From: Symploca sp. SIO2E9
Lineage (GTDB): Bacteria > Cyanobacteriota > Cyanobacteriia > Cyanobacteriales > Coleofasciculaceae
Direction: 5' to 3'
DNA: 46,177 nucleotides
NCBI GenBank assembly: GCA_010692645.1
Contig: JAAHGS010000003.1
Location: forward strand, 156,715 to 202,891
A model generated the notes under the pieces. It searched no databases. It had not been told where the DNA came from and saw only the letters and a list, made by a program, of their open reading frames with translations. Below are positions 14,102 to 45,840 of the stretch, in pieces. Every line of letters starts with the position of its first letter. Position 1 is the first letter of the stretch. The position numbers were made by a program, and so were the translations under genes.

Positions 14102-15100
14102 TCAATCTCGATTTTGCCTAAGCAGATAATCCAAAACCCGATCAATTCGTTCCAGCGCCGCACTATTAGAGCGTTGGTTTTCAAGGCTAGCCCTTTGGAA
14201 TTCCTGGGTAGATTTTTGGAATTCTTGTAACTGAGACTGGAATGCTTGATCGTTGCGGGTTAACATCTGCGCAATTGCTTCTAGTCTTTCAGTCTGCCCC
14301 TCTAGTCTGTTTAATCTTTCGGCTTGTTGATTAAACAGTCGCTGAGCTTCAAAGACAAAGGAATCTACACGTTCAGATAGTCGATCTATCTTAGCTTGAG
14401 ATTGAATCTGTGACTCAAATAGTTGATCTATGTGAGTTTGAGACTGAGCCTGTGCCTCAAATAACTGATCTATGTGAGTTTGAGATTGAGTCTGTACCTC
14501 AAATAACTGATCTATCTTAGCTTGAGATTGAGCCTGTGACTCAAATAGTTGATCTATGTGAGTTTGAGAGTGAGCCTGTGACTCAAATAGTTGATCTATG
14601 TGAGTTTGAGAGTGAGCCTGTGCCTCAAATAACTGATCTATGTGAGTTTGAGAGTGAGCCTGTGCCTCAAATAACTGATCTATGTGAGTTTGAGAGTGAG
14701 CCTGTACCTCAAATAGCTGATCTATGTGAGTTTGAGAGTGAGCCTGTACCTCAAATAGCTGATCTATGTGAGTTTGAGATTGAGTCTGTGCCTCAAATAG
14801 TTGATCTATGTGAGTTTGAGATTGAGTCTGTACCTCAAATAGTTGATTGAATTGAGCTTGGCTTCTTGCTTGAGCATCCGTCAGCGAGTCAACTTTTACA
14901 GCTAGCTGATCTAAGTGAACTTGAGTTTGCTCGCTTCTTTGGTTGGCTGATTCTGCATAACCAGCTAACGAATCTACACGTTCAGATAACCGATCTATTC
15001 TTTGGTTGGCTGATTCTGCATAACGAGCTGCTGACATCAACAGTTCTTTGACTGTTTCAAATTCATCTTCTAAGCGATTTAGCCTCTGTTCTGTGGTCAT
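14102..15100 (-). CDS. Coiled-coil protein with tandem 14-residue repeats
   Basis: A soluble protein of 332 residues with no recognisable enzyme domain. It begins MTTEQRLNRLEDEFETVKEL, followed by ESANQRIDRLSERVDSL blocks. Then come about 11 copies of a 14-residue unit QTHIDQLFEAQAHS (two heptads), and a C-terminal coiled coil NRLEGQTERLEAIAQML ending LDYLLRQNRD. The repeats make a long continuous coiled coil likely, perhaps trimeric. I chose ATG 15098-15100, 16 codons into the longest frame, because coiled-coil homology starts there. Function unknown; possibly a scaffold or a cell-surface fibre, although no signal peptide is present. Out-of-frame ORFs on the other strand are products of the same repeat. 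Confidence 0.75.
   Translation of the reverse strand: MTTEQRLNRLEDEFETVKELLMSAARYAESANQRIDRLSERVDSLAGYAESANQRSEQTQVHLDQLAVKVDSLTDAQARSQAQFNQLFEVQTQSQTHIDQLFEAQTQSQTHIDQLFEVQAHSQTHIDQLFEVQAHSQTHIDQLFEAQAHSQTHIDQLFEAQAHSQTHIDQLFESQAHSQTHIDQLFESQAQSQAKIDQLFEVQTQSQTHIDQLFEAQAQSQTHIDQLFESQIQSQAKIDRLSERVDSFVFEAQRLFNQQAERLNRLEGQTERLEAIAQMLTRNDQAFQSQLQEFQKSTQEFQRASLENQRSNSAALERIDRVLDYLLRQNRD
14395..14850. repeat. 42-bp coding tandem repeat (about 11 copies)
   Basis: A unit that reads, on the plus strand, CTCAAATAGTTGATCTATGT, then GAGTTTGAGAGTGAGCCTGTG, repeats every 42 bp inside the coiled-coil gene. The middle copies are almost identical and the outer ones more diverged. This pattern fits growth from the centre by unequal crossing-over or slippage. 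The period is a multiple of 3, so copy number can change without a frameshift. Confidence 0.9.
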
Positions 15101-15394
15101 TTTTCTAGCCTCAAGCTTATCGAAATTAATATGGGTCAAATACCCCACCGTCTATACGGTGCCTAAAATTGATTGGGGTTAAATCCCCATCCAATTTATC
15201 TCCGCGTCCCCGTGTCTCCGTGTCCCCGCGTCTTTAATAACTTACCCCTCCTTGCTCTGAGTTCTGGTGGGAACTGCCGCCAGAGGTTCAAAAAAACATA
15301 ACACAATCTTGGGTAGAACGAAGTGAAACCCAACTCTAACTATTATATATGTTGGGTTTTGTTGCCTTAATCTAATCTACGAATAGTGCATCAG

Positions 15395-33999: not shown

Positions 34000-34866
34000 A
34001 TGCAACAGCAGACAGTGCAGCAACATACCAGACTTGGCAGGGAATTCCTGCCAGGTTGCAATCTCACGCAACTTACAGAGCAACAGGTAACTCAATTCAA
34101 GCAATCTCTTTGGGAACACGGTGTGATTGTTCTCAGACAGCAACATCTTACCGCATCACAGTTGAAGGAATTTGCGATCGCAACTTTTGGTGATTCAACC
34201 CTTGGGCGTTATACTAGGCCAATAGATCCCGAAATCGATCCAGACTTACAAAGTCCTGGTGTCTCTATTTTGGGAAATCCTAAAATGCATACTACCGAAA
34301 TTAGGGGAAAATTTGCTTGGGAATGGCATCATGATAAGGATCACCTTCCAAAAACAGAAGGAATGGATATGAATACTCTGTACGTGGTGATGCTTTATGG
34401 AGTGGAAATACCTCCAGAAGGAATCGATGGCAAGCCTCACACGACAGAATTCCTCGACATGGTAGAAGCCTACAATAACCTCTCTAGAGAACATCAACAG
34501 CAATTAGAGCAAACCTCGATGCATCATCTTTCACCATTCTTCCCTAAGCCTGGGAGCGATGTTCCAATGAAACTGCATCCCATCGTCTCAACCCACAAAG
34601 TGACTGGCAAAAAAGGACTATATCTCGGCTCAGACACATCAATTAGAGTTGGCATGGAGGAGAAACTAGAGGAAGCAAAACTTTTCTGGCAGGAACTTTT
34701 TGAGACTGTTTTAGAGCGTACACCAGTTTACGCTCATGTTTGGCAACCAGGGGATATTGTCTTTTGGGACAACTCCCAAGTCATGCACGCAGGCACTCCT
34801 TATGATGCCAATAAGTATAGGCGTATCGCTTTGCGCGTAGGAGTCGTAGACAAGACTTCCACTTAA
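34000..34866 (+). CDS. TauD/TfdA-family Fe(II)/2-oxoglutarate dioxygenase
   Basis: A 288-residue oxygenase with the iron triad His110-x-Asp112 (EWHHDKDH) and His263 (QVMHAGTPY), and a C-terminal Arg in RRIALRV for 2-oxoglutarate. Family members hydroxylate taurine, 2,4-D or natural product intermediates. The substrate is unknown. It lies 2.9 kb before the chorismatase cluster on the same strand, separated by an oppositely oriented kinase gene, so it could be a tailoring enzyme of that pathway; this is speculative. The ATG at 34000 is the natural start and no operon partner is adjacent. Confidence 0.88.
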   Translation: MQQQTVQQHTRLGREFLPGCNLTQLTEQQVTQFKQSLWEHGVIVLRQQHLTASQLKEFAIATFGDSTLGRYTRPIDPEIDPDLQSPGVSILGNPKMHTTEIRGKFAWEWHHDKDHLPKTEGMDMNTLYVVMLYGVEIPPEGIDGKPHTTEFLDMVEAYNNLSREHQQQLEQTSMHHLSPFFPKPGSDVPMKLHPIVSTHKVTGKKGLYLGSDTSIRVGMEEKLEEAKLFWQELFETVLERTPVYAHVWQPGDIVFWDNSQVMHAGTPYDANKYRRIALRVGVVDKTST

Positions 34867-37168: not shown

Positions 37169-37788
37169 ACGGTTTTACCGAAGGAATGCAAAGGTGCAGC
37201 AACTACCTTCTCGATTTTTGCACATAATATGGAGTTAAAACGGTGGAAACTGCCCTGTAAGATGCACCACTGCTTACTAATTCAACATAAAAATTCACTT
37301 AATGTTTCGTAAAAATTATGACCTTGAATTCTAGGATTCTCTAGTAAATTGTAACCAATTATTAAGTAGGATTTAACAGCTAAGTTGGCATAAACGTTAG
37401 CTTCGTCACCATAGCTTCGTCACCATATTTTTTTTTCAGCCTGTGAGGATAATAAACTATTTTAAAGATTTGATGAAGTTACTTTTAATGTGTTGTCACT
37501 TTCATAATAACCTGAATATAATAATTCTCATGATGAGTCCAACTGTAAAGCTTAAAATCCTTCAATTTACGGTTTTTAAAAAATTGAGAGATTTTTGCCT
37601 ACAGGACTTGTTGTGGCAGCAATTAGCAAGGGGGTGCTGCCATAAAAACTACAATAATTTGTGACCACACAAATTAGCAAGCTACTAGTAAATCCGATTA
37701 ATTCAGTCAGATAGAATATTGACTAATTTTATCGGTATTGCTTGGACTAAATAAATATTGCTCTCGATGAAGTGGCATTGGTTAAATT
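37169..37788. other. 620-bp AT-rich gene-free region upstream of the biosynthetic cluster
   Basis: No gene is supported; a 73-codon frame at 37443-37664 lacks any recognisable feature. A short direct repeat (AGCTTCGTCACCATA, about 37399-37429) precedes a T-run. The region must hold divergent promoters for the kinase and the chorismatase genes. Confidence 0.55.
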
Positions 37789-38754
37789 ATGAAAACACTT
37801 GAAGCAGTAGGCCAGGATACTCAAAGTATTCAAATCATGTTTGGTCGAAATCAAACCTCTTGCATTCCTAGAAACAATGGCATTGATTTGTATGTAAAAA
37901 TTCCTACCTTGGGTGAAGATAGTAGAGAACGCTTAATTACCCAGCCCGGTTCCGTGTACCAAAAGCTAGGTTTTCACCTTGTTGAAACCGAAGATAGATT
38001 GGCTGGTGTTTTAGTCAAAGAGGCCCAATTTCCACTAGAGAAAATAACCTATCAGGTATATCTAGACTTTTTAGAATTAACTAAAGATTGGAATTTATTC
38101 CGCGTTTGGCATTACGTTCCCTTCATCAACGATGAAACTTCAGCCCTAGAAAATTACAAGTCATTTTGCAAGGCTCGTTCCTTAGCCTTTGAAGCTTTCT
38201 ACGGTGAAGATTTTAATATTGAACTGCCAGCTGCATCTGCTGTCGGCATTAACGACAACAACTTAGTGATGTACTTTATTGCAGGTAAAGAGAAGGGAAC
38301 TCATCTTGAAAATCCTGAACAAGTCTCGGCTTTTCACTATCCCAAACAGTATGGTCCAAGATCTCCTAGTTTCGCACGAGGTACCGTAATTAATCAGGAT
38401 GGAAAACAAGTCGGTTATCTGTCTGGAACCGCCAGTATTAAGAGTCATCAGTCAGTAATGTTGATGGATGTAGCTGATCAACTCTATACGACAGTTGATA
38501 ATATGAGCCTGGTTTTTGAAGGCATGGGTTTAGTCTTTGAACGCCAGAGTTACGGCAACATTATGCCTGATCCTGCTAAGTACAACCGAACTTTTAAGGT
38601 ATACATTAGACATGCAGAGGACGCCAATCGCGTGCGCGAACTTTTTCCGCAAGCGATTTTGGCTACTGAAGAGGATCACATTATTTACTTACACTCAGAT
38701 ATATGTCGCTCAGAATTAGATATTGAAATCGAAGCGATTATCGAAGAAAAGTAA
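37789..38754 (+). CDS. Chorismatase (FkbO/Hyg5/XanB2-like)
   Basis: A 321-residue chorismatase, which hydrolyses chorismate to pyruvate and a hydroxybenzoate or dihydroxy-cyclohexadiene acid. Family blocks: LFRVWHYVPFINDE, NYKSFCKARSLAFEAFYG, AASAVGINDN, VSAFHYPKQYGPRSPSFARGT and YLSGTASIKSHQSV. The protein is full length. FkbO-type, Hyg5-type (3-hydroxybenzoate) and XanB2-type enzymes give different products, and I cannot decide between them from the sequence. It is the first gene of a co-directional set of four (ligase, carrier protein, NRPS), so it probably supplies the aryl acid for that pathway from shikimate metabolism. Confidence 0.9.
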   Translation: MKTLEAVGQDTQSIQIMFGRNQTSCIPRNNGIDLYVKIPTLGEDSRERLITQPGSVYQKLGFHLVETEDRLAGVLVKEAQFPLEKITYQVYLDFLELTKDWNLFRVWHYVPFINDETSALENYKSFCKARSLAFEAFYGEDFNIELPAASAVGINDNNLVMYFIAGKEKGTHLENPEQVSAFHYPKQYGPRSPSFARGTVINQDGKQVGYLSGTASIKSHQSVMLMDVADQLYTTVDNMSLVFEGMGLVFERQSYGNIMPDPAKYNRTFKVYIRHAEDANRVRELFPQAILATEEDHIIYLHSDICRSELDIEIEAIIEEK

Positions 38755-38923
38755 GCAGTGATTAATCTTGAATTGGGGAGTAGATTATTCAATAAAATCA
38801 AATCTAACTCCTTTCCCATAACTTTGGGAAGAAGCTGCTTAAAAATTAAAGTAGAAGAATTTCTTCTAAGTAGTGTGACTGATATAAGTCGGAAGGAATT
38901 GATTAATTTTATGGAGTTCTTGT

Positions 38924-40447
38924 ATGCTTAACCAAATGCTCAATAAGACCGTAAAGCAGTATCCTGAGAAAACTGCGGTCGTCTACGGTTCCTCAAGGAT
39001 AAGTTATCAGGAACTCTACACTAGTGTCCTGGGATTGAGTAAGGGTTTAAGCTCAATAGGCGTTAAACAATCTGACTGTGTAGCGCTGATTTTGCCCAAT
39101 TGCCCAGAGTTTGTAGTTAGCTTCTATGCTACTGCCTATTTAAATGCAATCACGCTGCTGTTGCACCCTTCTTTCAAGGAAAACGATATCAAGCACTACG
39201 TCAGTGATAGCAATACTAGTGTAATTATTACTGATCATACGCGGGCTGAGGCTTGCCGTAAGGTTATCTCTCAACTAGATCAAAAAGTCGAATTGGTTAT
39301 AGTTGGGGGAGAGGATTCCCTTGGTATTCCATTTCAGGATTTAATTCACAAACAAGTGGATGATTTACCAGAAAATGCCTCTTATGAAGGAGACGTACTC
39401 TACCAATATTCCTCTGGCTCTACAGGAAGACCAAAGAGAATTTGTAGAACTCAGAAGAATCTCTTCCATCAGGCTAATAACTGTGTCCTCACCCTCAATA
39501 TTACAGAGTCTGATAATATTTTGTGCATCGTACCACTCTACCATGCCTATGGGTTTGGAGAATGCCTACTGGCAGCAATAAGTACTGGAGCAACACTCGT
39601 TATCCTCGAACCATTTTTGCAGGATGGAGTTCCTCTGGAAATGCCATTTGTTTTCAGGCGTCCGAGAGTATTAGAGTTAATTGAGAAGGAGCAAATTTCC
39701 CTTCTGCCAGCTGTGCCTTACATCTTTAGTATCTTGGCAGCAACTCCGCCAGAAACTCATGCCAGCTTACCCAGTTTAAGGTTATGTATTTCAGCCGGAA
39801 ACTTCCTATCTAAAGATATTTTTGATAAATTCCAGCAGAGATTTGGGATTCCCATCAGACAGCTTTATGGTTGTACAGAGGCTGGATCTATTGCCATTAA
39901 TATGGAAACTGGCTCAGAAATCAAACCTGATTCTATCGGTTTGCCCATGAAAAATGTCGAAATCAAAGTTATGGATGATAAGGGTGACGAGTTACCCAGT
40001 GGCATTGTTGGGGAACTTGTTGTCAACAGCCAAACTTTGACCAGCGGCTATTACAATGCTCCAGAAGTGAATAAAGAGGCATTCAAAAGTGGTCACTTTT
40101 TTACTGGTGACTTGGGTAAAAAAGATGAACAAGGTTATCTCTACATTACTGGACGTAAGAAAATATTTATTGACACTGGCGGCTATAAAGTTGACCCCTT
40201 AGAAGTTGAAGATGTCCTTAGCGCTCATCCTAAAGTAGAAGAGGTGGTAGTTGTCGGGATCAGTAGGCCCTATGCAGGAGAGATGATCAAAGCTGTTATA
40301 GTGTCCAAAGAAGAGTGTCAAGAGGATGAGCTTTTAAACTACTGCAAAAATAAACTGCCAGAATTCAAAGTACCCAGAATTATTGAATTCCGTGAAGAAA
40401 TTCCCAAGAGTCCACTAGGTAAGATTTTGAGAAAAGATCTAGTCTAG
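38924..40447 (+). CDS. AMP-dependent acyl/aryl ligase (candidate hydroxybenzoate-AMP ligase)
   Basis: A 507-residue ANL-superfamily enzyme that forms an acyl adenylate and transfers it to CoA or a carrier protein. Motifs: YSSGSTGRPKRI (A3), YGCTEAGSI (A5), FFTGDLGKKDEQGYLYITGRKK (A7-A8) and KSPLGKILRK with the catalytic Lys (A10). Located 170 bp after the chorismatase and before a free carrier protein, it most likely activates the chorismatase product and loads that carrier. Similar trios (chorismatase, ligase, ACP) start xanthomonadin synthesis. A GGAG ribosome binding site lies about 8 bp before the ATG. Substrate identity is inferred from context only. Confidence 0.88.
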   Translation: MLNQMLNKTVKQYPEKTAVVYGSSRISYQELYTSVLGLSKGLSSIGVKQSDCVALILPNCPEFVVSFYATAYLNAITLLLHPSFKENDIKHYVSDSNTSVIITDHTRAEACRKVISQLDQKVELVIVGGEDSLGIPFQDLIHKQVDDLPENASYEGDVLYQYSSGSTGRPKRICRTQKNLFHQANNCVLTLNITESDNILCIVPLYHAYGFGECLLAAISTGATLVILEPFLQDGVPLEMPFVFRRPRVLELIEKEQISLLPAVPYIFSILAATPPETHASLPSLRLCISAGNFLSKDIFDKFQQRFGIPIRQLYGCTEAGSIAINMETGSEIKPDSIGLPMKNVEIKVMDDKGDELPSGIVGELVVNSQTLTSGYYNAPEVNKEAFKSGHFFTGDLGKKDEQGYLYITGRKKIFIDTGGYKVDPLEVEDVLSAHPKVEEVVVVGISRPYAGEMIKAVIVSKEECQEDELLNYCKNKLPEFKVPRIIEFREEIPKSPLGKILRKDLV

Positions 40448-40642
40448 TTTGCTAACTGGAGCAATTCTAGGAATTTAGAATTTAGGAGTTACAGGAGTTC
40501 CTCCTACGGAGGCACTGCGCTAACAAAACACAGAAAAATATTTGGTTTGTGTCTTGTTTGAAGCGTAATAATTACTCGGTGTAACTCCCTCTAAATTCCT
40601 CTAACTTCCTGTAAATCCTTATTTAACGGTTAAACGAAGATC
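40448..40642. repeat. Intergenic repeat between ligase and carrier protein genes
   Basis: Heptamer-like units (GAATTTA, GAATTTA, GGAGTTA; about 40470-40497), a CCTCC/GGAGG stem (40500-40512), an imperfect hairpin around AACAAAACACAG and TGTGTCTTGTT, and inverted heptamer-like units (CCTCTAAATTCCTCTAACTT) at the right. The block looks like an inserted MITE-type element inside the operon. Confidence 0.5.
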
Positions 40643-40903
40643 ATGACTATTGAAGAAGTAAAACAAAAAACCCAAGCAGTTGTTTTAGAAATGCTGCCAG
40701 GTGTGAGCAGTGAAGAACTCTCCGATGACAGGGATATTTTTAGCCTAGGCTTAGACTCAATTAATGCCATGAATCTTATTTTTGGCTTGCAAGACGCCTT
40801 TGAGGTTCAATTTGCAACCAGTGAGATTAGCTTTGAAAATTTTCGGACTGTATCAGGAATTGTTGAATTGATACAAAGAAAACAACAGGAAGTGCTGGGG
40901 TAA
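40643..40903 (+). CDS. Free-standing acyl (aryl) carrier protein
   Basis: An 86-residue carrier protein. The phosphopantetheine site is Ser39 in FSLGLDSINAMNL, preceded by the acidic DDRDIF. The size and the LGLDSI motif are typical of discrete ACPs or aryl carrier proteins. Its place between an aryl ligase and a condensation-domain NRPS makes it the natural donor carrier for the acyl group. A phosphopantetheinyl transferase must act in trans; none is in the window. Confidence 0.92.
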   Translation: MTIEEVKQKTQAVVLEMLPGVSSEELSDDRDIFSLGLDSINAMNLIFGLQDAFEVQFATSEISFENFRTVSGIVELIQRKQQEVLG

Positions 40904-41053
40904 CTCGCCAACAGGAAAGAGGGTGGGAGATGGGGTGACACGGTGACACGGTGACGCAGTGATAGTTGCGGAACTTGCCTTGAAACCCCACGGTATTTTT
41001 AACCTCACCCTAGATAAAGATAGCAGTTCTTAGTTGAATGGTAGATAAAGACA

Positions 41054-43750
41054 ATGAACCCTCCCCAACCAAAAAATTCTAGCGTTTTAGAAGATAAGTT
41101 AAGCGACAATAGCCAAAGTAATCATCCTGCTGAAACACCTCCAGCAACTCGCAGTAAATCAGAAACAGCTTCAGCAGAACTTTGGGAATCGATTAAAACT
41201 ATCATTGGTTTACAGAATCAGGCACCGCCCTTAGTTCCTGTTTCTAGGGAAGGGAATCTACCATTGTCTTTTCCTCAAGAACGACTGTGGTTTCTTGAGC
41301 AATTAGAATCTGCCAACTCTTCTTACAACATACCTTTCACTTTTCGCATTAACGGTTCCCTCAATATACCGGCTTTAGAAGAAAGCCTCAAGGAAATTCT
41401 GCGACGCCACCAAGCCTTACGAACTAACTTTTCCTCTGTCGAGAGCAAACCAGTCCAAGTAATCGCTCCTACTGTAAATTTGAATCTATCGGTGGTAGAT
41501 TTGCAAGATTTACCAACTCAGGAGCGAGAGACTCGGGCAATGCAATTAGCTACTGAGTCAGCACAGCAGCCTTTTGAAATCACTCAAGAGCCACTGTTTC
41601 GGGCGAGTTTGCTCAAACTGGGAGAAGCCCAACATATACTACTCCTCAATATCCATCATATTGTCTTTGATGGTTGGTCAGAAGGAGTTTTGTTTAAGGA
41701 ACTAGCAACCCTCTACGAAGCCTTCGCTGACAACAAACCCTCCCCCTTGCCCGAGCTCCCCATCCAGTATCCAGATTTCGCCCCCTGGCAACGGCAATGG
41801 TTGCAGGGGGAGTTTTTAGAGGCGTTACTTTCTTACTGGAAAGGGCAGCTTGGGGGTAAAATCGGTGAGTTACACTTACCTACAGATCATCCTCAACCAG
41901 CTGTTCCTAAGCGTGGTAGTGCTTGCCAAAAGTTTGTCCTCAGTAAGGAGCTAACCGAATCGATTAAAACTCTTGGCCGTCAGGAGGGAGCAACTCTATT
42001 TGCAACACTACTAGCAGCTTTTAAAATTCTACTGCACCGCTACACAGAGCAGGATAACCTGTTTGTATGTTCTCCCATTGCTAACCGCAATCGTAAAGAA
42101 CTACGGGGATTAGTAGGATACTTTGTCAATCTGCTAATTTTGCGCACTGATTTTTCTGGTAACCCCAGTTTTCAAGAGTTGCTGGCTCAGGTACGTCAAG
42201 GGGCATCTGGAGCCTATGCTCATCAGGATTTGCCCTTGCAGCAGTTAGTGAGTCACCTGGATTTAGGTAAAGTACCTCTTTCTCAGGTGATGTTTGTACT
42301 TCAGAATACTCCCCAACAGGTACCGAAATTGCCTGGGCTAGAGGTAGAGGCGGTAGATATTGATAACGGCATGGCAGATTTTGATTTGTCCCTGTCGATG
42401 GTGGAGGAAGCTGGTACGTTAACGGGAACATTCAAATACAACACTGATTTGTTCGAGGAGAAGACAATCAACCAGATGCTAGAGCACTTTCAAACCGTGC
42501 TAGAGCAGGTTGTTGCCAATCCAGAGCAACCTCTGTCTCTACTGCTGCCTTTGAGTGAAGCCCAGCAACAGCAACTGCAAACAATGAGGCTTAACTCAGC
42601 ACCAAAGTCAGCCTCTGAGCAAGCCTTGGAGCGGGAAAAGAACTTTGTCGCGCCCCGAGATGCAATCGAAATTAAACTAGCCAAACTTTGGGAAGATGTT
42701 TTGGACATCCGCCCCATTGGTATTAAGGACAACTTTTTTGAGTTGGGGGGATACTCCTTAGTAGCTGTACGTCTGATAGCTGAAATTGAGAAAGCCTTCA
42801 ATAAAAATCTTACCCTTCCCACTATTTTTCAGGCACCAACAGTTGAAGAACTAGCCAAAATTATTACTCAAGAGGACTCCTCAACTTCTGGATTTTCCCT
42901 GGTGCCAGTTCAACCAAAAGGTTCAAAAACACCTTTATTTGCTATCCACTATCTCGGCACAAATATGAGATGGTATCGCCCTTTATCAGTTCATCTGGGT
43001 TTGGATCAACCTATTTATGGACTAGTGGATAAGCTGGCGATCGAAAATCTTTTGGATGAACAAAAGGCAATGCCCAATATTAAGGTTGAGGAGTTAGCGG
43101 CTTACTATATTCAAGAAATGCGAACTGTTCAGCCTGAGGGACCTTATTTCATGTCAGGCATATCTTTTGGAGGTGCCATTGCCTTCGAGATGGCTCAACA
43201 GCTTCATGCTCAAGGACAAAAAGTAGGTTTATTGGCTTTATTTGATACCCTCGGCCCAGATGATTCTTCCAAAATTTCAACACCCCGTCAGGGAGTTTCT
43301 AGTCATTTGAAAAATCTGTTAACCCTTCCACCCCAAGAAAAAATCAAATATCTTCGAGAGCAGGTAAGAAATAAGAGTATCTGGCTCATCAATAGGATTA
43401 AAGACAGGTTCAAAAAGCCATCTCAAAGATTTACGATAGCGTGGCGAAAGCTCACCTGTAGTTTTTACTTAGCGATTGGACGTCCTATACCTAAGAAACT
43501 CCTCGATTTTCGCGCTAGTGCAGCTAATAATCAAGCCAGGATAGATTATGTACCTAAAGTTTATCCTGGTCGCGTGACTATGTTTAGAGCTCTTGATAGT
43601 TACTTAGCACCAGGAAATCCTGATATGGGCTGGGGTAAATTAGCTGGTGGAGGTTTGGATCTTCATTATGTCCCTGGTGGTCATTCTTCTATGTATAATG
43701 AACCTCATGTGCAAGTATTGGCTGAGAAGTTAAAGGCTTGCTTGGAGTAG
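41054..43750 (+). CDS. Minimal NRPS module: condensation - carrier - thioesterase, no adenylation domain
   Basis: An 898-residue protein. After a flexible N-terminus (about 75 residues), the condensation domain (about 75-510) has PLSFPQERLWFLEQL and the active HHxxxDG as HHIVFDG (201-207). A carrier domain follows (about 530-610; DNFFELGGYSLV, Ser568). A type I thioesterase (about 625-898) has GISFGG (Ser704) and PGGHSS (His877). No adenylation domain is present. The condensation domain would take the aryl group from the discrete carrier protein. The amine partner must be loaded by an adenylation enzyme encoded elsewhere or be a free amine. The thioesterase releases the product. About 30 residues around GLQNQAPPLVPVSREG resemble linkers between NRPS modules. 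Confidence 0.93.
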   Translation: MNPPQPKNSSVLEDKLSDNSQSNHPAETPPATRSKSETASAELWESIKTIIGLQNQAPPLVPVSREGNLPLSFPQERLWFLEQLESANSSYNIPFTFRINGSLNIPALEESLKEILRRHQALRTNFSSVESKPVQVIAPTVNLNLSVVDLQDLPTQERETRAMQLATESAQQPFEITQEPLFRASLLKLGEAQHILLLNIHHIVFDGWSEGVLFKELATLYEAFADNKPSPLPELPIQYPDFAPWQRQWLQGEFLEALLSYWKGQLGGKIGELHLPTDHPQPAVPKRGSACQKFVLSKELTESIKTLGRQEGATLFATLLAAFKILLHRYTEQDNLFVCSPIANRNRKELRGLVGYFVNLLILRTDFSGNPSFQELLAQVRQGASGAYAHQDLPLQQLVSHLDLGKVPLSQVMFVLQNTPQQVPKLPGLEVEAVDIDNGMADFDLSLSMVEEAGTLTGTFKYNTDLFEEKTINQMLEHFQTVLEQVVANPEQPLSLLLPLSEAQQQQLQTMRLNSAPKSASEQALEREKNFVAPRDAIEIKLAKLWEDVLDIRPIGIKDNFFELGGYSLVAVRLIAEIEKAFNKNLTLPTIFQAPTVEELAKIITQEDSSTSGFSLVPVQPKGSKTPLFAIHYLGTNMRWYRPLSVHLGLDQPIYGLVDKLAIENLLDEQKAMPNIKVEELAAYYIQEMRTVQPEGPYFMSGISFGGAIAFEMAQQLHAQGQKVGLLALFDTLGPDDSSKISTPRQGVSSHLKNLLTLPPQEKIKYLREQVRNKSIWLINRIKDRFKKPSQRFTIAWRKLTCSFYLAIGRPIPKKLLDFRASAANNQARIDYVPKVYPGRVTMFRALDSYLAPGNPDMGWGKLAGGGLDLHYVPGGHSSMYNEPHVQVLAEKLKACLE

Positions 43751-44243: not shown

Positions 44244-44640
44244 GCAGGGCGCACGTCGGTGCAGGGCGCACGTCGGTGCAGGGCGCACGTCGGTGCAGGG
44301 CGCACATCGGTGCAGGGCGCACGTCGGTAGAGGGCGCACGTCGGTAGAGGGCGCACGTCGGTAGAGGGCGCACGTCGGTAGAGGGCGCACGTCGGTAGAG
44401 GGCGCACGTCGGTAGAGGGCGCACGTCGGTGCAGGGCGCACGTCGGTAGAGGGCGCACGTCGGTGCAGGGCGCACATCGGTGCAGGGCGCACGTCGGTAG
44501 AGGGCGCACGTCGGTGCAGGGCGCACGTCGGTGGAGGGCGCACGTCGGTGGAGGGCGCACGTCGGTAGAGGGCGCACGTCGGTGGAGGGCGCACGTCGGT
44601 AGAGGGCGCACGTCGGTAGAGGGCGCACGTCGGTGCGCCC
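44244..44640. repeat. 17-bp tandem array (about 23 copies) of GGGCGCACGTCGGT
   Basis: The unit GCAGGGCGCACGTCGGT, with variants at its first three positions (GCA, AGA, GGA) and a rare CAT variant, repeats about 23 times. It ends in a GGGCGCAC...GTGCGCCC hairpin identical in stem to 16064-16083. It is open in all frames on the minus strand and yields arginine- and cysteine-rich 17-residue peptide repeats that are artefacts. The units are contiguous without spacers, so this is not a CRISPR array. Confidence 0.95.
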
Positions 44641-44733: not shown

Positions 44734-45840
44734 ATGCAAAGAGTTGCTGTCGAGTCCGGAATGATCTTACTTGGTCTTACTGGTAGTAATGCTTATGGTA
44801 CAGCGATCGCAACCTCGGATCAAGACTATAAAGGCGTGTTCATTGCTCCGAAAGAGTACTACTTGGGATTTAAGTCTATTGAGCAAAAGGATAGGGGTTG
44901 GGATAGTGAGCCTGGAAGTGGGCAATTCCCTTATCTCGACGGTATCAAAGATTGCGTAGTTTATGAACTCAGAAAGTTTTTATCACTGATTGCTAATAAT
45001 AACCCTAATATTTTAGAGACACTGTGGTTAGAACCGGAGTTTTATTTCTATATTTCTCCAGTGGGTTCACGCCTGCTTTCCTATCGTCAGGAATTTCTAT
45101 CTCAGAAAGTCAGGGGTTCTTTTGTTGGCTATGCCTACTCTCAAATCAAGAGGGTTGACACTCATAGAAAGTGGCTACTTAATCCTCCTGCAAAAAAGCC
45201 TATTCCCCAAGATTTTGGACTCAATGATGACGACTATCGACCTTTAACTAAGGGAGAAATGCATGCCTTCCTTGAGTTTCTTTATATGCTTGTCCGTGAC
45301 TGTATTGAATTCATGGAACCATCCCAAGAATTCTATGAGTTATTAGTTGAACGCATCGACTTCAAAGGAATTATCAAGCAATACCCCCTACCAGAAAAAA
45401 TACTACCCAAAGTGCAAGCCTATACTAGGGCAAAAGATGAATTTATCCATTTACTACACGTTTCCCAGGCTTATCGCAAAGCACTAAACCAATGGGATGC
45501 CTATTCTCGATGGCAGCAGGGTAGAAACCTAGAACGTAAAGCACTGGAACTCAAGTGTGGTTATGATTGCAAGCACATGAGTCATTGCATTCGTTTGCTA
45601 CGGATGGGTATTGAAATTCTCACAGAAGGTGTACTTAAAGTCAACAGGAAGAAAGTTGGCGATGCTGACTACCTCCTATTGATTCGACAGGGGGAGGTTT
45701 CCTATGAAGAGGTGAAGGAAACTGCTGATGATTTGTTTGAGGAAATTAAGCAAGTAAACACCAATCTGCCCAAGCACGTGGATAAAGAATTCCTCAATTC
45801 CGTTTGTGTGGAGTTGGTTGAAATGGCATCTGGCTCCTAG
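44734..45840 (+). CDS. Predicted nucleotidyltransferase (COG3541/YcgL-like)
   Basis: A 368-residue protein with a DNA polymerase beta-type nucleotidyltransferase head: GLTGSNAYGTAIATSDQDYKG gives the GS pair (17-18) and the metal-binding Asp29 and Asp31. Further family motifs are FLSLIANNNPNILETLWL and YAYSQIKRVDTHRKWLLNPP, and a helical C-terminus with MSHCIRLLRMGIEIL. Such proteins occur in bacteria and phages; the substrate is unknown, perhaps tRNA or a protein. It is isolated and co-directional with the upstream cluster, but separated from it by the 17-bp array. Confidence 0.85.
   Translation: MQRVAVESGMILLGLTGSNAYGTAIATSDQDYKGVFIAPKEYYLGFKSIEQKDRGWDSEPGSGQFPYLDGIKDCVVYELRKFLSLIANNNPNILETLWLEPEFYFYISPVGSRLLSYRQEFLSQKVRGSFVGYAYSQIKRVDTHRKWLLNPPAKKPIPQDFGLNDDDYRPLTKGEMHAFLEFLYMLVRDCIEFMEPSQEFYELLVERIDFKGIIKQYPLPEKILPKVQAYTRAKDEFIHLLHVSQAYRKALNQWDAYSRWQQGRNLERKALELKCGYDCKHMSHCIRLLRMGIEILTEGVLKVNRKKVGDADYLLLIRQGEVSYEEVKETADDLFEEIKQVNTNLPKHVDKEFLNSVCVELVEMASGS

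Follow-up and report, generated by a model that had tools for sequence, protein, structure and literature searches.

Enterobactin-type aryl-capped siderophore lines combine a stand-alone aryl ligase, an aryl carrier, a condensation (C) domain and a thioesterase (TE), and their EntF protein has its own adenylation (A) domain. Xanthomonadin is reportedly made with a XanB2-type chorismatase, a 3-hydroxybenzoate (3-HBA):ACP ligase and an acyl carrier protein (ACP), with a type II polyketide synthase as back end, and the ambigol pathway of Fischerella ambigua is said to comprise a DAHP synthase, a chorismate lyase, a 4-hydroxybenzoate (4-HBA) ligase, an ACP and a halogenase. Hyg5-type (CH-II) chorismatases such as Nat-hyg5 feed 3-HBA to an assembly line, as for the unantimycins (PMC7170507), and FK-type chorismatase clusters are the subject of PMC11888242. 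Here we describe a compact cluster of four genes in the cyanobacterium Symploca sp. SIO2E9, encoding a chorismatase, an AMP-forming ligase, a free-standing carrier protein and a nonribosomal peptide synthetase (NRPS) protein with C, carrier (T) and TE domains (C-T-TE) that lacks an A domain (A-less). It lies on a stretch of 46,177 nucleotides that reaches the end of its contig (contig JAAHGS010000003.1, positions 156,715 to 202,891), hereafter the window, and represents the chorismatase-fed branch of a wider, patchily spread and mostly A-less hydroxybenzoate cassette.

With the unantimycin system the cluster shares the CH-II glycine and cysteine and, as predicted, 3-HBA as aryl starter on an NRPS-type line, whereas its chorismatase is only 38% identical to Hyg5 over the aligned part and falls in a separate clade, its ligase and ACP are discrete, and a multimodular line is missing. 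Chorismatase, ATP-dependent ligase and discrete ACP also form the front end reported for xanthomonadin, but the back end here is a C-T-TE protein rather than a type II polyketide synthase (the comparison is one of gene content). With the enterobactin-type lines the cluster has in common the stand-alone aryl ligase and the aryl carrier as well as a C domain and a TE; it differs from them in that its NRPS protein, unlike EntF, has no A domain and that an acid other than 2,3-dihydroxybenzoate is predicted. The gene list reported for ambigol resembles sister clusters of the window and could make these less new; the window differs in its chorismatase and in that no halogenase-like protein was found next to its cluster. 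Precedents for parts of the set are found on Pseudonocardia pBCI1-1, where a pair of stand-alone condensation-domain proteins accompanies a chorismatase and a DAHP synthase, and on a Streptomyces goshikiensis plasmid (chorismatase followed by an AMP ligase). We know of no product of this gene set, and no paper showing it was found among the titles and abstract openings listed in a search of mostly open-access literature that was not directed at the lyase form of the cluster. Free 3-HBA is among the phenolics reported from a Leptolyngbya extract (PMC7600079).

Gene content and conservation of the cluster

All four genes are encoded on the forward strand. The chorismatase (37789-38754, 321 amino acids (aa)) was recognised from its open frame, Pfam and residues. 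The ligase (38924-40447, 507 aa) carries an AYGFG motif and a C-terminal GK lysine motif and scored 266.5 bits with AMP-binding and 61.6 bits with AMP-binding_C; it is predicted to load a hydroxybenzoate on one or more carrier proteins. The acyl/aryl carrier protein (40643-40903, 86 aa; PP-binding 44.1 bits) shows the motif LGLDS with Ser39. In the C-T-TE protein (41054-43750, 898 aa) Pfam placed the C domain at residues 66-508 (Condensation 381.1 bits), the T domain at 541-603 (PP-binding 53.6 bits) and the TE domain at 627-893 (Thioesterase 75.2 bits), with the motifs HHIVFDG (201-207), FFELGGYS with Ser568 and GISFGG with Ser704. It had no Pfam match to AMP-binding and, as the A domain between C and T is missing, it fails the definition of a complete NRPS elongation module. 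No A domain was found either among the window frames of at least 75 aa searched with an A-domain reference, the contig ending 2.4 kb after the C-T-TE gene, and no transporter or regulator gene was recognised by Pfam within the cluster itself.

The same four genes occur in unchanged order in Symploca sp. SIO3C6 (locus L001), so the conserved synteny that a first-pass annotation of the window had proposed to look for in genome collections does exist. Between the two genomes dN/dS (NG86) was 0.22 for the chorismatase, 0.11 for the ligase, 0.23 for the carrier protein, 0.115 for the C-T-TE protein and 0.066 for its TE domain alone, values that indicate purifying selection on each of the four genes. 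A TauD-family gene upstream of the cluster also showed a low value (0.175), so that selection speaks for function and not for cluster membership. The recurrence in L001 is not a chance arrangement, and the cluster is real and, judged by selection, functional. Reading frames, Pfam, recurrence and dN/dS thus bear out the first-pass description of four intact, co-directional genes, and its active-site residues and missing A domain in the C-T-TE protein were found as described. Downstream of the C-T-TE gene the window and L001 diverge, which suggests that the right end of the cluster lies there (the contig is part of a 7.7 Mb assembly).

Predicted function of the chorismatase

The window chorismatase passed the Pfam model FkbO_Hyg5-like_N (PF21168) with 61.3 bits against a gathering cut-off of 27. 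With 174 bits it stayed under the cut-off of 325 of NCBIfam TIGR04444, which makes it chorismatase-like and places it outside the curated subfamily. Its solved relatives are 4bps (FkbO) and 5ag3 and 5a3k, both titled putative pteridine-dependent dioxygenase, which we take to be Hyg5. Gly213, Cys306 and Glu313 of the window protein align with Hyg5 Gly240, Cys327 and the catalytic Glu334, and these three were kept in 16/17 loci compared, the remaining sequence (L045) ending before the last two. According to PMC7170507, the CH-II residues of Nat-hyg5 are Gly164, Gly231 and Cys318, and its Glu325 belongs to the active site. Gly231 and Cys318, i.e. Hyg5 Gly240 and Cys327, are matched by window Gly213 and Cys306, while the third CH-II glycine (Nat-hyg5 164, mapped here to Hyg5 173) is alanine in the window. 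This position is glycine in FkbO too and in 6 of 8 loci that carry a luciferase-like monooxygenase (LLM) gene and no ligase. Because of the alanine we do not file the enzyme under CH-II and describe it only as working like one.

In a tree the 17 cyanobacterial rows were split with full support (100/100) from the five references, which comprised fragments of Hyg5 and FkbO together with three chorismatases borne on plasmids; the tree contained long branches and two rows that are fragments. Of the placement against FkbO, Hyg5 and XanB2 that had been proposed earlier, the first two references are thereby covered. An AlphaFold model built from four sequences (pLDDT 38) was too poor for use. We predict from the residues that the enzyme, which stands in a clade of its own, works like a 3-HBA synthase. 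Given the Hyg5-type glycine and cysteine together with the catalytic glutamate, 3-HBA is the likeliest acid to be made from chorismate. The earlier expectation of an aromatic or a dihydroaromatic acid therefore holds for its aromatic half; a dihydroaromatic product was set aside since Gly213 and Cys306 match Hyg5 rather than FkbO.

Distribution of chorismatase loci

Genomes were sampled in overlapping draws, which together yielded 17 distinct chorismatase genomes: 5/388 in the class, 14/388 in the order, 5/20 in the family, 1/29 in the order of genome G202, 2/27 in the family of G470 and 1/63 in the order of G365. No chorismatase was found in viral contigs. A ligase gene is present in nine of the 17 loci (window, L001, L002, L003, L010, L011, L035, L037, L038), and an LLM gene in 11 (L010, L012, L035, L036, L037, L040-L045); three loci (L010, L035, L037) have both. 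Contig ends limit L002, L003, L011, L012 and L041, and short contigs limit the reading of synteny around the G202, G285, G365 and G498 loci.

The ligase-bearing chorismatase loci vary in architecture. Chorismatase and ligase are fused into one protein in L010 and L037. L037 encodes a C-A-T-TE protein about 1.8 kb after its C-T-TE protein, and L010 has a C-A-T-TE protein in place of the C-T-TE. A HetI-like phosphopantetheinyl transferase gene near L035 and L037 scored below the model cut-off (296 and 315 versus 370 bits). In L002 and L038 a chorismate-lyase-like gene and a DAHP synthase gene stand between ACP and C-T-TE. The lyase-like protein of L002 reached 72.3 bits with PF01947 (cut-off 22), and in six of seven genomes searched a high-scoring copy (204-217 bits) was present, further copies scoring 53-72 bits. 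The lyase gene between ACP and C-T-TE is a divergent paralog, which might make 4-HBA.

Eight of the 17 loci (L036, L040-L045, L012) show the chorismatase beside the LLM gene and neither ligase nor NRPS in view. A strict pairing of the two genes was considered and dropped: it came from chorismatase-bearing genomes only, and in the order-wide draw 10 of 13 LLM genomes carried a chorismatase and three did not. Eight other genomes encode LLM proteins with 76-84% identity to that of L035, and Streptomyces plasmids encode homologs of about 40% identity (25 records, E up to 1e-60). Two genomes with the chorismatase-LLM pair (G641, loci L042 and L121; G632, loci L045 and L120) carry on another contig a lyase-ligase-ACP-C-T-TE cluster with a halogenase-like gene. 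The chorismatase of G632 has an in-frame stop.

A wider, putative hydroxybenzoate cassette

Ligase matches were found in 26/388 genomes of the order draw (E up to 1e-110), in a search that scored the three best first-look candidates per genome so that paralogs might have been missed. With one match of 44% (G661) left out, 25 genomes gave 26 ligase loci at an identity of at least 57%, seven of them known chorismatase loci and 19 new. The latter, 57-63% identical to the window ligase, are from the taxonomic order of the window and lack a chorismatase. In 15 of these 19 a chorismate-lyase-like gene resembling that of L002 is encoded directly upstream of the ligase; L113 ends at this point, and the gene is not present in L107, L110 and L115. 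An A-less C-T-TE protein follows in 13/19. In L110, L114 and L115 C-A-T modules come after the ligase-ACP pair. No NRPS is in view in L107, which has a gene of the carnitine-acyltransferase family, and L104 and L116 end after the ligase. The cassette of ligase, carrier and A-less C-T-TE is thus wider than the window and mostly accompanied by a lyase-like gene, which makes the window set one branch and not an isolated pathway. Most relatives appear, from these gene contents, to run on 4-HBA.

In eight of the 13 chorismatase-free C-T-TE loci (L103, L105, L106, L117-L121) a halogenase-like FAD protein adjoins the C-T-TE protein. All eight proteins contain GxGxxG and WxWxIP, the flavin halogenase signature; the one in L103 passed Pfam Trp_halogenase (34.2 versus 21 bits) and was far under the cut-off of the CmlS model (55 of 900). 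These loci have HHxxxDA or HHxxxDF instead of HHxxxDG in the C motif. A PobA-type protein is in view in seven of them and none in the stretch around L117; the one tested passed the 4-hydroxybenzoate 3-monooxygenase subfamily model (414 versus 351 bits) and failed the equivalog (337 of 538.7). Cupin-domain proteins recur as well. All eight clusters share lyase-like gene, ligase, ACP, A-less C-T-TE and FAD protein, to which most add a DAHP synthase, a PobA-type monooxygenase and cupin proteins. Their products are possibly halogenated hydroxybenzoates. The ligase-ACP pair of L110, L114 and L115 precedes larger NRPS genes, the products of which are probably hydroxybenzoyl-capped peptides.

In a tree of the ligases, the eight rows associated with a chorismatase group together with 77/100 bootstrap support (the incomplete L003 was left out). 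This grouping makes a single change of acid supply possible and does not prove it. The AYGFG motif of the window ligase corresponds to AYGLG in the ligase beside the Streptomyces goshikiensis chorismatase (shared AYG-x-G), and the alanine is kept in 8/9 ligases aligned, serine replacing it in L037. The window ligase fell far short of the cut-offs of the curated aryl ligase models (DHB_AMP_lig 223 of 723.55 bits, benz_CoA_lig 231 of 375.25 bits). With its AMP-binding domains and the adjacent carrier protein the window ligase is built as expected for an aryl ligase that loads a carrier, and the earlier proposal of adenylation followed by loading on the discrete carrier is supported by these families and by gene order.

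C-T-TE proteins without adenylation domain

Among the 28 ligase loci (nine with and 19 without chorismatase) five could not be read at the C-T junction, L002, L003, L104 and L116 being cut before it and L107 having no NRPS in view. Of the 23 readable junctions, 19 are A-less and four have an A domain (L010, L110, L114, L115). Eighteen of the 19 are complete C-T-TE proteins, and L011 is A-less at the junction and cut in the T domain. That the A domain is absent was concluded from Pfam in the case of the window and L103, and from protein comparison together with length (852-943 aa) for the others. The 18 genomes with complete proteins span seven cyanobacterial family labels (f1, f3, f5, f6, f7, f11, f44). 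The carrier serine is conserved in all 18 and the second histidine of the C motif in 17, L035 having glutamine (HQIVFDG). The TE nucleophile is serine in 13, cysteine in four (L038, L111-L113) and neither in L037, the TE of which also lacks histidine and aspartate; in L108 glutamate replaces that aspartate. Both NRPS proteins of L037 (10520-13240 and 15059-19261) are without serine or cysteine at the aligned TE position and have kept carrier serine and C-domain histidine.

The window C domain matched ordinary NRPS C domains best, with 5u89, Txo2, TycC, Txo1 and PvdL in the top ten. VibH, the type case of a C domain that passes an acyl group to a free amine or alcohol, was not among the best 60 of 112 C-domain matches. 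These A-less proteins near ligases of one clade raise the question of what the C domain joins when nothing encoded next to it activates an amino acid.

An A-domain gene immediately beside the cluster in relatives was named in the first-pass annotation as evidence that would speak against it. Such a gene was found in two of the nine ligase-bearing chorismatase loci (L037, L010) and not in L001, L035 and L038, nor did the sequence read on either side of the C-T-TE gene in the 13 chorismatase-free loci that have one show an A domain; contig ends cut short L002, L003 and L011 as well as the window, in which none is seen up to that point. The L010 A domain passed TIGR01733 (360.6 versus 317.4 bits). 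The A domains of both C-A-T-TE relatives contain the segment FDxVLRDIF, the aspartate of which we take to be the residue that binds the alpha-amino group (GrsA numbering). Their specificity residues were read and matched no code familiar to us, and no substrate is claimed. Within the window genome itself 19 A-domain matches were found (E up to 1e-60), with 33-41% identity to the L010 A domain; a close relative of the latter that could act in trans was therefore not identified in this genome.

Proposed pathway and alternative explanations

We tentatively favour a compact hydroxybenzoate thiotemplate pathway in which two hydroxybenzoates are joined through an ester, giving a depside. Domains, residues, gene order and conservation are observed, and from them we infer every substrate and condensation step. 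The chorismatase would convert chorismate to 3-HBA, as predicted from its residues, and the ligase would adenylate this acid and load it on the free carrier, as its family, the gene order and the lyase-like genes beside its orthologs suggest. The C domain would take the hydroxybenzoyl group from the free carrier; that the aryl-ACP is the donor for a C domain is very likely because the same ligase-ACP pair precedes C-A-T modules in L110, L114 and L115. Its acceptor is probably carrier-bound, since the C domain looks like those of ordinary NRPS proteins and the serine of the T domain is kept. The T domain would be charged without a dedicated A domain, most likely by the same ligase, which would attach a second hydroxybenzoyl group; this is the simplest reading, as an A domain was seen beside C-T-TE genes only in L037. 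The C domain would then esterify the two hydroxybenzoates, and the TE might release or cyclise the product. The first-pass proposal of a complete pathway thus stands well in its first half, the second half being conjectural, and its picture of an isolated gene set gives way to one branch of the wider cassette. Its two options for the nucleophile, a free amine or alcohol or a group loaded in trans, are both still rivals, and it had omitted that one ligase might load both carriers, which we rank as the most likely way of loading the T domain.

Several observations weigh against the depside pathway. Any of the 19 A-domain matches in the genome could act in trans. The A domains behind C in 4/23 readable loci, and in a second protein in L037, indicate that the cassette can deliver to amino acids. 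The loss of the catalytic histidine in L035, the TE of L037 and the varied TE nucleophile fit it poorly, and 8z0q, titled special condensation domain, is among the best C-domain matches. One alternative, which we regard as somewhat unlikely, is that an unlinked A domain charges the T domain with an amino acid; the C domain would then build an N-(3-hydroxybenzoyl) amino acid for release by the TE. The ordinary C domain, the invariant carrier serine, the C-A-T-TE neighbours in L010 and L037 with their kept aspartate, the curated A-domain match of L010 and the C-A-T modules behind the equivalent ACP in L110, L114 and L115 all agree with trans-loading. The partner would, however, need to be unlinked in all those loci in which no A domain stands beside the C-T-TE, and the best A domain of the window genome is only 41% identical to that of L010.

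Unlikely in our view is a further alternative: a free nucleophile, amine or alcohol, receives the hydroxybenzoyl group from the C domain, or the C domain only shifts the group from ACP to T, where it would be tailored by halogenation or hydroxylation ahead of hydrolysis by the TE. The end product would be a small modified hydroxybenzoate, amide or ester. This alternative would account for the halogenase-like and PobA-type proteins of the sister clusters, the LLM in three ligase-bearing chorismatase loci, the lost C-domain histidine in L035 and the stand-alone condensation-domain proteins near the Pseudonocardia chorismatase, but beside the window cluster no tailoring gene was found except the TauD-family gene, shared within the genus only, and VibH is missing from the best C-domain matches. 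A degenerate or silent cluster without a coherent pathway is very improbable: active-site losses in L035 and L037, the in-frame stop in the G632 chorismatase and the lack of a recognised transporter or regulator gene point that way, whereas the window motifs are intact and its four genes are under purifying selection.

Returning to the depside pathway, in which the ligase would supply both carriers, the C domain would join hydroxybenzoates and the TE would release the product, an extension to the whole cassette can be imagined. The cassette would then be an NRPS line without amino acids, its C domain making phenol esters and its TE releasing linear or cyclic oligoesters, with branches that differ in how the product is halogenated or oxidised and in which hydroxybenzoate is supplied (3-HBA where a chorismatase is present, 4-HBA where a lyase is, and both acids in two relatives); we consider this unlikely in its full form. 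If hydroxybenzoate esters are made, they would be a new product class for NRPS machinery, and if they are not, a trans-loading partner that genome mining overlooks would be revealed. With only four genes, the window cluster can be expressed whole.

Neighbouring features

A promoter-like site (TTGTCA-18-TATAAT, 37493-37522, forward strand) lies upstream of the chorismatase as a candidate only, because such sites did not exceed chance in the window (13 found, 13.7 in shuffles); terminator-like sites were not above chance either (5 found, 6.2 in shuffles). The TauD-family dioxygenase gene (34000-34866) is located 2.9 kb upstream of the cluster. It was considered as a member and left out, as its position is kept only in the same-genus L001 and it did not turn up in the stretches surrounding the other loci. 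A tandem array of a 17-base unit with 22.9 copies (44246-44635) lies in the interval from the C-T-TE gene to an RlaP-like gene (44734-45840). A second array, with 11.1 copies of a 42-base unit (14383-14847), lies within the reading frame 14102-15148.

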